A stretch of DNA of 64,000 nucleotides, taken from the NCBI RefSeq assembly GCF_011193355.1, contig NZ_CP049780.1, positions 3,358,985 through 3,422,984 on the forward strand, given 5' to 3'. Made by a program: the position numbers and the translations under genes. Positions 26,870-28,757 of this stretch are shown here, piece by piece (position 1 is the first letter of the stretch; every line of letters begins with the position of its first letter). This stretch comes from Streptomyces sp. JB150. Lineage in GTDB: Bacteria; Actinomycetota; Actinomycetes; Streptomycetales; Streptomycetaceae. The notes beneath the pieces were generated by a model that was not told where the DNA came from, did not search any database, and saw only the letters and a list, made by a program, of their open reading frames with translations.

Positions 26870-26998
26870 ATGCGCGCAGCCCGTCGAGTGGCCGCCGTCC
26901 TGTCCGCCGCCGCCCTGATGTTCGGTGCCCTGACCACTCAGGCGGCGGCCGTCAGCATCGATGTCGCCGGACTGGTCATCGAGACGCCGCAGGTCTGA
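26870..26998 (+). CDS. 42-residue secreted peptide precursor
   Basis: A short gene starting at the ATG at 26870 after AAAGGAA. It encodes a signal peptide (MRAARRVAAVLSAAALMFGA with cleavage near TTQAAA) and a mature part of only about 16 residues (VSIDVAGLVIETPQV). No family is recognised. A terminator-like hairpin follows at 27020, and a second small secreted protein starts at 27099. Both mature ends share a G-L-I-acidic-T pattern (GLVIETPQV here, GPLIDTITLPRL in the second), hinting at related peptides. Confidence 0.6.
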   Translation: MRAARRVAAVLSAAALMFGALTTQAAAVSIDVAGLVIETPQV

Positions 26999-27098: not shown

Positions 27099-27389
27099 AT
27101 GCGCTCCGGACCCGCCCTCCGCCCTCGCCTCACCCGCTCCACCGCGCTCGCCGTCCTCGCGGCGGTGCTGGTCCCGGCCGTCGCGGCGGCCGGCGCCCTG
27201 GCGCCGCAGGCCTCCGCCGCCACCCCGGCCACCGTGACCACCGCGACCGCTCCGACCACCGCGACCACCGCCGCCGCTCCCCTGCCGCTGCCGCTTCCGC
27301 TGCCGGAGGCCGGGGCGGGGCCCATCGTCAGCGAGGTGGGCAACATCGAGGGCCCGCTGATCGACACGATCACTCTGCCCAGGCTGTAG
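27099..27389 (+). CDS. 96-residue secreted Pro/Thr/Ala-rich peptide precursor
   Basis: A small exported protein from the ATG at 27099, with CGAAAGG upstream. The signal peptide (STALAVLAAVLVPAVAAAGA, cleavage near APQASAA) is followed by a low-complexity Thr/Ala stretch, a PLPLPLPLPEAG run and the end GNIEGPLIDTITLPRL. No cysteines and no known domain. It overlaps the convergent YqhA-IstB gene by 20 bp. With the peptide gene at 26870 it forms a pair of small secreted products beside the XPB locus. Function unknown. Confidence 0.55.
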   Translation: MRSGPALRPRLTRSTALAVLAAVLVPAVAAAGALAPQASAATPATVTTATAPTTATTAAAPLPLPLPLPEAGAGPIVSEVGNIEGPLIDTITLPRL

Positions 27390-28602
27390 CGGTGCGGCGC
27401 TTGCGGTAGCTGTCCCCTTCGAGCCGTACGGTCTCGGCGTGGTGGGCGAGGCGGTCCGCCATCGCCGGGACGGACGGGCCGTCGAGCACCTCGTGCCAGC
27501 GCTCCAGCGGGCGGTCGCTGGTGACGACCAGCGAGCCGCGCTCGTAGCGGTGGGCGACCAGCCGGAACAGCAGGCGCGTGGCGTCCGGGCCGAAGGGGAC
27601 GTAGCCGACCTCGTCGACGACGAGGAGGGCGGCCTCGTCCAGACCGGCCAGCTCCTCCGCAAGGCGTCCCGCGGCCTCCGCCTCCGCGAGCCGGGCCGCC
27701 CACTCCGCGGCGGTCGCGAACAGCACCCGGTGCCCGGCCTGGCAGGCCCGCAGGCCCAGCCCGATCGCGAGGTGGGTCTTGCCGGTGCCGGGGCCGCCGA
27801 TGAAGAGCACGTTGCGGCGCGCGGAGACGAAGTCGAGCTTGCCGAGGCGCGCGACCGTGTCGCGGTCGAAGGCGCGCGGATGGTCGGTGTCGAAGTCCTC
27901 CAGCTGCTTGCGGGCGGGGAACCCGGCGGCCCGGATCCGGTCCTCGGCGTGGTCCTCCCACACGGGCGGGCCGGCCTGGGCGGGGACCGTCACCGGGGCG
28001 TCCCCCGGTCCGGGCCGGGATTGCCCGGCCCGCTCGGTCTCCGCGGGCCGGTGCTCCCTGGCGTGGTGGTGTTCGACGCGGGCCACCATCTCCCCCGACA
28101 TGTAGGCGAGGATCGCGGCGGACACGATGAACGCCATGTGGATCACCGTGCCCCACAGCAGCGAGTGGTGGGGGGTGTGGTCGACGTCCACGAACATCTG
28201 GAGCAGGTGGACGGAGGAGATGCCCACGATGGCGGTGGCCAGCTTGACCTTCAGCACGTTCGGGTTGACGTGCGAGAGCCATTCCGGCTGGTCCCGGTGG
28301 CCCTGGAGGTCGATCCGGGAGACGAAGGTCTCGTAGCCGCCGACGATCACCATGATGAGCAGGTTGGCGATCATCACGACGTCGACGAGCTTCAGCACGG
28401 CGAGCATGACGTACGTCTCGTCGGCCCGCCCGGCCACGCACCGGACGATTAACGTCCACAGCTCGTTGAAGAACTTGTAGACATACACGCCCTGTACGGC
28501 GACCAGGCCGAAGTACAGCGGGGCCTGGAGCCAGCGGGTGGCGAACAGGGCGTACCCGAGCGTGGCGGTGGGCGGTGGCGGCGTCCGAGTCATGTGCTGC
28601 AC
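27370..28602 (-). CDS. Fusion of YqhA/TIGR00645 membrane domain with IstB-like AAA+ ATPase
   Basis: A single 410-residue frame joining two unrelated families. Residues about 15-180 match the YqhA/UPF0114 (TIGR00645) membrane protein: RWLQAPLYFGLVAVQGVYVY, VVMIANLLIMVIVGGYETFV, VLKVKLATAIVGISSVHLLQ and a fourth helix to about residue 170. After a charged linker, residues about 225-405 match IstB/DnaC-like ATPases: FPARKQLEDFDTDHP, Walker A IGGPGTGKTHLAIGLG near 267, Walker B VVDEVGYVPFG, then RYERGSLVVTSDRP and LAHHAETVRLEGDSYRKR. The usual N-terminal IstB segment is missing. No istA transposase gene is nearby. Leu51 is TTA, so translation should need bldA tRNA. Start is GTG 28602 or ATG 28593. 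Confidence 0.82.
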   Translation of the reverse strand: MQHMTRTPPPPTATLGYALFATRWLQAPLYFGLVAVQGVYVYKFFNELWTLIVRCVAGRADETYVMLAVLKLVDVVMIANLLIMVIVGGYETFVSRIDLQGHRDQPEWLSHVNPNVLKVKLATAIVGISSVHLLQMFVDVDHTPHHSLLWGTVIHMAFIVSAAILAYMSGEMVARVEHHHAREHRPAETERAGQSRPGPGDAPVTVPAQAGPPVWEDHAEDRIRAAGFPARKQLEDFDTDHPRAFDRDTVARLGKLDFVSARRNVLFIGGPGTGKTHLAIGLGLRACQAGHRVLFATAAEWAARLAEAEAAGRLAEELAGLDEAALLVVDEVGYVPFGPDATRLLFRLVAHRYERGSLVVTSDRPLERWHEVLDGPSVPAMADRLAHHAETVRLEGDSYRKRRTATAWAE

Positions 28603-28757
28603 ACTGCGTCATTCTTCGCATACCTCCGCCGTACGGCCGCACCCCGCCACCCGTGAGGCTGAATAGACATCCTGTAGGACCGGCCGCGCCGGACCGGTCG
28701 CCCGCCCGGCCGGATCAGGCACACTGGACGTTTGGCCGCGCGGAAGGATGTACGCAC

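Follow-up and report, generated by a model that had tools for sequence, protein, structure and literature searches.

A YqhA putative membrane domain joined in one reading frame to an IstB-like AAA+ ATPase domain in Streptomyces

The closest described relative of the ATPase domain considered here is IstB, the helper ATPase of IS21-like elements, best represented by the IS5376 protein (PDB 8q3w and 5bq5; NCBIfam NF038214). IstB works with the transposase IstA of its own element, which is bounded by terminal inverted repeats; it binds duplex DNA tightly, in the 40 nM range, bends it and stimulates IstA. In the available portion of PMC11208146, the N-terminal part of IS5376 IstB is described as carrying the region for dimerisation and a large share of the contacts with DNA. 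The same portion ties the N-terminal domain to a 30-fold higher affinity for duplex DNA, to dimer formation and to autoinhibition of the ATPase, ascribes assembly to ATP-dependent AAA-AAA contacts, and places the docking cleft for IstA between the N-terminal and ATPase domains. The next relatives after IstB, by HMM as well as by Foldseek, belong to the DnaA/DnaC clade of AAA+ proteins, with matches that cover the AAA+ part only. DnaA has Asp at sensor I. FtsH and Msp1 are membrane-anchored AAA+ proteins, and their general plan, a membrane part combined with an AAA+ domain, resembles the layout predicted for the protein described here. The present protein differs from both in its AAA+ clade, in its four-helix YqhA part and in having no protease domain in the Pfam scan.

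YqhA, the putative membrane partner, appears in scattered contexts. The gene is among 20 whose overexpression permits growth of E. coli in 6 mM H2O2 (PMC8228696), a W14L change in YqhA occurs in an evolved inhibitor-tolerant strain (PMC10991953), the Buchnera protein is labelled a putative Cl- channel (PMC3246468), a single table line concerns it in PMC10100675, and one family member is a chloroplast envelope protein (PMC3610082). The available portions of these five sources show no YqhA activity; PMC10991953 also cites a B. subtilis yqhA as an rsbR paralogue. Free YqhA (UPF0114, TIGR00645) was found in 58 non-Streptomyces genomes and has in common with the fusion the whole domain and the invariant residues of the alignments; in the fusion it is joined at its C-terminus, via a linker, to the AAA+ ATPase. 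The B. subtilis rsbR paralogue is a protein that we take to be unrelated to UPF0114 YqhA.

The window, i.e. the whole 64,000-nt stretch of Streptomyces sp. JB150 that was analysed, contains one such fusion. A first-pass annotation had reported a continuous 410-residue frame at 27370..28602 that carries both domains. Coordinates and length are right, and the strand, which was left unstated, is minus. The features are as follows, with residue counts referring to the AAA+ tree and the GTDB loci described below.

27370..28602, minus strand: YqhA-IstB fusion gene, 410 codons plus stop
28096..28554, minus strand: YqhA / UPF0114 / TIGR00645 putative membrane domain, residues 17-169
about 28435-28572, 28315-28419, 28189-28263 and 28054-28170, minus strand: YqhA helices predicted by the AF2 model
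27952..28047, minus strand: predicted disordered, fast-evolving linker, pLDDT under 50
27391..27945, minus strand: AAA+ domain of the IstB/DnaC type, matching positions 50-235 of the 238 in the Pfam profile
27775..27798, minus strand: Walker A, GGPGTGKT, Lys in 92/92 tree rows and 80/80 GTDB loci
27610..27627, minus strand: Walker B, LLVVDE, Glu in 49/51 fused rows and 80/80 GTDB loci
27514..27516, minus strand: sensor I position, Asp in the window, Asn in free IstB
27451..27453, minus strand: DRL-motif Arg, candidate Arg finger, 92/92 tree rows and 80/80 GTDB loci
27403..27405, minus strand: sensor II Arg, 92/92 tree rows and 80/80 GTDB loci
28611..28680, minus strand: conserved upstream element, likely a promoter, core 28660-28677, AAGAAT 28611-28616

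The gene starts with GTG at 28602 on the minus strand and stops at 27370-27372. A GTG-CAG start is found in 13 of the 18 aligned rows of group A (the XPB-linked copies, see below), and an alternative ATG three codons downstream of the GTG gives a 407-aa product (P0001). The Pfam and NCBIfam matches bear out the claim that YqhA and IstB-like domains share one frame: UPF0114 spans residues 19-137 (E 2e-36, 125.2 bits against a cut-off of 23.1, profile positions 1-117 of 117) and TIGR00645 scores 182.3 bits against a curated cut-off of 144.4, while IstB_IS21 spans residues 220-404 (E 2.5e-53) and IS21_help_AAA scores 213.5 bits against a curated cut-off of 200. Both Walker motifs are present and intact, as had been noted.

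An open linker is weak proof of a fusion by itself because the DNA is high in GC, and it is comparison across genomes that settles the matter. We searched 246 Streptomyces genomes, and 38 contained UPF0114, with one match each. In 34 of these the IstB domain lay in the same frame; two of the remaining four were cut by contig ends and two were unfused (G265, G012). Both domains also shared one frame in 80/80 GTDB loci, the best 80 of 303 relatives, all titled Streptomyces, although this ranking favours fused copies and the all-fused outcome is partly selection. The 34 and the 80 loci overlap in part and must not be added. A protein search scored 7,998 candidates, and both Pfam domains are present in every one of the 120 rows listed. 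For the first-pass annotation, a simple assembly fusion would show itself by relatives that have two genes instead of one, divided at the junction by a stop or start; no stop was seen in the 34 two-domain Streptomyces loci or in the 80 GTDB loci. An assembly artefact or a chance open frame might be suspected, given the many long spurious frames in Streptomyces DNA, but the same architecture recurs in many separate genomes and the frame is kept despite changes in linker length. With 34/38 and 80/80 loci against it, this explanation is already refuted and retains virtually no probability.

Outside the genus the picture is different. A class-wide search of 394 genomes gave 64 with UPF0114, of which six were Streptomyces, all fused, and the fusion was not found in any of the other 58, all non-Streptomyces actinomycetes. 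Listed frames in those 58 genomes were at most 301 aa, too short for both domains, with four exceptions. These long frames (G325, G294, G272 and G572) were rejected as fusions, being read-through upstream of YqhA or, for G572, tandem YqhA. In a family search of 150 genomes seven matched, six Streptomyces and one other genus with a piece of YqhA. In a phylum search (396 genomes, E≤1e-60) 12 matched, full-length in three Streptomyces and over the AAA+ part alone in the other nine. Across the genomes searched, the fusion is Streptomyces-specific.

Several loci from these searches stand apart. L130 (G572:C103) carries two YqhA domains in tandem within one 405-aa frame. The family-search locus from the other genus, L140 (G663:C3), holds only the C-terminal part of YqhA, 81% identical to the Streptomyces form, with no IstB match in the stretch; it is perhaps a remnant. 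An unfused Streptomyces YqhA at L073:9598-10347 is 79% identical, lacks the conserved upstream element and is a possible pre-fusion form. In L098 and L099, from another family of the order, a free yqhA stands beside a common large frame (854 aa in L098).

The AAA+ tree comprised 92 rows, 51 fused (34 from loci plus 17 taken from the 120 fused proteins) and 41 free IstB (33 of 120 free IstB and eight free locus rows); a further free IstB, P0169, was drawn among 34 and left out as it has no Walker A pattern. All fused rows fell on one side of a branch (97/64). Group A, the XPB-linked one, was monophyletic (100/99); the three lineages of group B form a grade. The YqhA tree had 54 rows, of which 36, including the contig-cut L064 and L074, were counted as fused; these too fell on one side of a branch, albeit a weak one (83/36), and the basal pair L068/L070 was the same as in the AAA+ tree. 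Among the 61 genomes searched, the closest free IstBs showed 61-65% identity, and two of them (G022:C72 and G007:C1) adjoin an IS21 transposase over the cut-off. The simplest reading, with branch support that is moderate or weak, would be a single fusion, after which the two halves evolved together.

Compared with IstB, the fusion has the same AAA+ sequence and fold and shares Walker A and B, the switch Tyr, the DRL Arg and the sensor II Arg. It differs in that YqhA replaces the N-terminal domain, in a mostly Asp sensor I, in a more negative net charge, in an AAA+ part one residue shorter in group A, and in a genome of its own without IstA. The first position matched is 50 of 238 in the Pfam profile of IstB, 46 of 232 in the NCBIfam model and residue 61 in the 8q3w chain, so the dimerisation and DNA-clamp domain, the first 65 residues in IS5376 IstB, is absent. 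The join immediately precedes the AAA+ core (REAHGAEGRIRAA in free L010, HAEDRIRAA in the window protein), and YqhA plus linker thus occupy the place of the IstB N-terminal domain. Residue roles were transferred from IS5376 IstB as given in the available portion of PMC11208146, whereas the choice of Arg finger is our own assignment. On these assignments, ATP-binding and candidate inter-subunit residues are retained. The Walker A Lys, Walker B Asp, DRL Arg and sensor II Arg occur in 51/51 fused rows, the switch Tyr in 50/51 and the Walker B Glu in 49/51. The exceptions are L071 and L072 (L071:9613-11112 and L072:9672-11057), a lineage of the fusion in which the Walker B Glu is replaced by Ala and, in L072, the switch Tyr by Cys; this lineage is probably impaired in hydrolysis yet kept. 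Sensor I is Asn in 41/41 free rows versus 4/51 fused rows (D 45, E 1, S 1), and in the 80 GTDB loci it is D 71, N 7, G 1 and S 1.

The charge of the AAA+ part also shifts. Mean net charge is 0.0 in free IstB, -3.6 in group A and -4.5 in group B, with K+R means of 24.9, 24.1 and 21.6, respectively. Group A has lost five conserved basic positions (224, 243, 317, 320 and 392 of P0001) and gained five others (249, 252, 260, 390 and 400); group B mostly retains Arg 317. The shift therefore consists largely of added acidic and rearranged basic residues. It hints at a loss of DNA binding.

An AF2 model of the full protein (88-row alignment) had a mean pLDDT of 77.1 and a pTM of 0.47, a value so low that the relative placement of the YqhA and AAA+ parts is not defined by the model. 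Helices were predicted at residues 8-53, 59-93, 111-135 and 142-180; pLDDT was under 50 at residues 183-214 and 229-239, and ten-residue means were 87-98 across residues 261-390. The best Foldseek matches to the AAA+ part were IstB structures (8q3w, E 8.4e-12; 5bq5, TM 0.82 by target), followed by DnaA and DnaC. YqhA modelled alone (pLDDT 82.7, pTM 0.61) again gave four long helices, with no significant structural match in the PDB. Four helices would put both ends of YqhA on one side of the membrane, and since basic residues lie near the N-terminus, in the second loop and near the C-terminus, the ends, and with them the AAA+ domain, are expected in the cytosol.

The linker could be measured by motifs in 31 of the 34 fused loci. 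It ranges from 40 to 167 aa in 22 different lengths, all in frame. An in-frame ATG just after helix 4 is present in 31/31 loci, without ribosome-site-like sequence; an internal GTG with such sequence occurs in 8/31, at varying positions. An extra, separate AAA+ product is thus possible. Selection was gauged by medians of pairwise Nei-Gojobori dN/dS, for which the pairs are non-independent and GC bias is uncorrected. Group A (253 pairs) gave 0.078 for YqhA, 0.698 for the linker and 0.310 for AAA+; group B (55 pairs) gave 0.049, 0.661 and 0.369. By this measure YqhA is under the strongest constraint, the AAA+ part is moderately constrained and the linker hardly at all. The AAA+ domain of free IstB ranged from 0.05 to 0.26 in 16 pairs, and from 0.18 to 0.26 in the nearest clade (three pairs). 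These values fit an AAA+ part that is kept and somewhat relaxed relative to free IstB; slow decay fits too.

In the window and in most of group A, the fusion gene lies between a gene for a helicase-associated domain and an XPB-like helicase gene, a fixed chromosomal site. XPB lies within 1.5 kb in 53/80 GTDB loci (best 80 of 303). In 18 other Streptomyces genomes, flanks of 1.5 kb beside XPB gave no match to YqhA or IstB; in 13 of the 18 the helicase-associated gene lies on that side of XPB, the shortest gaps being about 120 bp (L152), 160 bp (L143) and 260 bp (L149). Copies of group B have other neighbours, mostly unshared, and members of its main lineage (L061-L067 and L069), at different sites, have in common the gene, some 50-100 bp upstream and little more. 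Two short signal-peptide-like frames were also seen on the plus strand of the window, at 26871-26998 and 27100-27389, between the helicase-associated gene and the fusion gene. The second overlaps the 3′ end of the fusion gene, tail to tail, and the first has one relative beside XPB among the 18 other genomes (L146).

The fusion gene is thus without constant neighbours but has its own conserved upstream element. Of 42 loci scanned, 33 carry the core, ACWGRATKYCTWTTMAYYC with up to 3 mismatches, at most 320 bp ahead of the YqhA start motif, and elsewhere only 3 matches occurred in 1.57 million strand-bases. The nine loci without it comprise four unfused (L073, L097, L098, L099) and five fused (L068, L070, L079, L080, L082). 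L080 and L082 each have one core match elsewhere in the stretch, perhaps a site missed by the start motif. The element is present in 77/80 GTDB loci (best 80 of 303), and the JB150 genome contains its core once when up to 2 mismatches are allowed, against none for a reversed-pattern control. In the window AAGAAT ends 8 nt before the GTG, a spacing that suggests a promoter with a near-leaderless start.

The first-pass annotation had also noted that there was no transposase partner nearby, and this extends to the entire genome: no match to the IS21 transposase (NF033546) was found at E≤0.001 in its 7.3 Mb. An IS21 transposase scoring over the curated cut-off is present in 11 of the 36 fusion genomes and absent from the other 25, hence the fusion is independent of an intact IS21 transposase and has none as an obligate partner. 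Some transposase match at E≤0.001 does occur in 32/36, many partial or far below the cut-off. The proposal of a domesticated transposition helper at the membrane divides. Domestication and a tie to a membrane-type domain find support in trees that fit one origin, the lack of a transposase, constraint on both domains and the four-helix model. The notion that the protein is still a transposition helper is not supported, given the missing IstB clamp domain, the mostly changed sensor I and the 25/36 genomes without a transposase over the cut-off.

What, then, might the fused ATPase do? Our leading reading, which we hold tentatively, is that a domesticated IstB module acts as an ATP-dependent assembly switch of a YqhA membrane complex. 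The four-helix YqhA domain and a flexible linker would have replaced the IstB N-terminal domain, most simply by one fusion, and ATP-dependent AAA-AAA contacts of IstB origin would probably bring YqhA bundles together in the membrane or gate them; YqhA would be the working part and AAA+ the nucleotide-dependent switch. This reading is favoured by the retained contact residues together with the lost N-terminal domain and the strongest constraint falling on YqhA. The conserved single frame, the two trees, the more negative charge of the AAA+ part and the transposase counts also speak for it. Oligomerisation, weakened DNA binding and an action on YqhA are its inferred parts. Several observations count against it: the AAA+ constraint is weaker than in free IstB, which would also fit slow decay; the K+R balance and the five gained basic positions remain compatible with DNA binding; the YqhA model has no PDB match and there is no known YqhA activity to regulate; and weak IS21-transposase matches occur in 32/36 fusion genomes. 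A fuller version is possible though more doubtful, namely that the AAA+ parts assemble, with ATP bound, into a ring or stack and thereby open, close or cluster a channel-like YqhA bundle off DNA, the gene being a solo unit with its own promoter that spreads between Streptomyces sites.

The gained basic positions that weaken the switch reading strengthen another, in which the protein is a membrane-tethered DNA binder whose AAA+ part holds duplex chromosome or plasmid DNA and whose YqhA part is the anchor. The AAA fold is closest to IstB, K+R in group A is near that of free IstB, and group B mostly keeps Arg 317. We nevertheless consider it unlikely, since the N-terminal domain that is tied to the 30-fold higher duplex affinity (PMC11208146, available portion) is absent, net charge is more negative with five conserved basic positions lost in group A, and the membrane part is the most constrained, unlike a mere anchor. 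The gap between YqhA (dN/dS 0.05-0.08) and AAA+ (0.31-0.37) could instead mean that only YqhA matters and that the IstB part is a drifting passenger from an old IS21 insertion beside yqhA. Loss of the Walker B Glu in L071/L072, the change of sensor I in most copies and the two unfused genes among 38 Streptomyces UPF0114 genes would agree with this. An AAA+ dN/dS well under neutrality would not, nor would the Walker A Lys and both Arg kept in 80/80 GTDB loci, or the lack of any stop or frameshift before AAA+ in 34/34 two-domain loci despite the changes in linker length, and we regard such drift as unlikely too. Less probable again is a guard against IS21 or phage, with AAA+ serving as an IstB decoy or as a sensor with YqhA as membrane effector. 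It could draw on the variable group B neighbourhoods and on a match to the PADLOC DrmD model (PDLC02630) at 142 bits, which we read as general IstB/DnaC likeness. Against it, one side of the IstA docking cleft is formed by the N-terminal domain (PMC11208146, available portion), which is missing in the fusion, no record among the best-scoring 5000 of 72,556 from plasmids reaches 80% coverage of the fusion, and the group A site on the chromosome is fixed.

No paper on a YqhA-IstB fusion was found in the open-access literature, and we file the protein as a known AAA+ module in a new architecture. If the switch reading is true, the protein would provide a clear example in bacteria of a transposition AAA+ ATPase taken over for work at the membrane. 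The fusion, made by nature, would then give access to YqhA, whose family is widespread and of unknown function and whose control elsewhere may likewise be nucleotide-dependent. The fusion also exposes a naming problem. Databases hold these proteins under IstB or UPF0114 names, and many chromosomal fusions are called 'IS21-like element helper ATPase IstB' in public databases, so that IS21 elements may be overcounted in Streptomyces. Similarly, the PDLC02630 model, which matches this IstB-type AAA+ domain at the score given above, may call IstB-like proteins DrmD.
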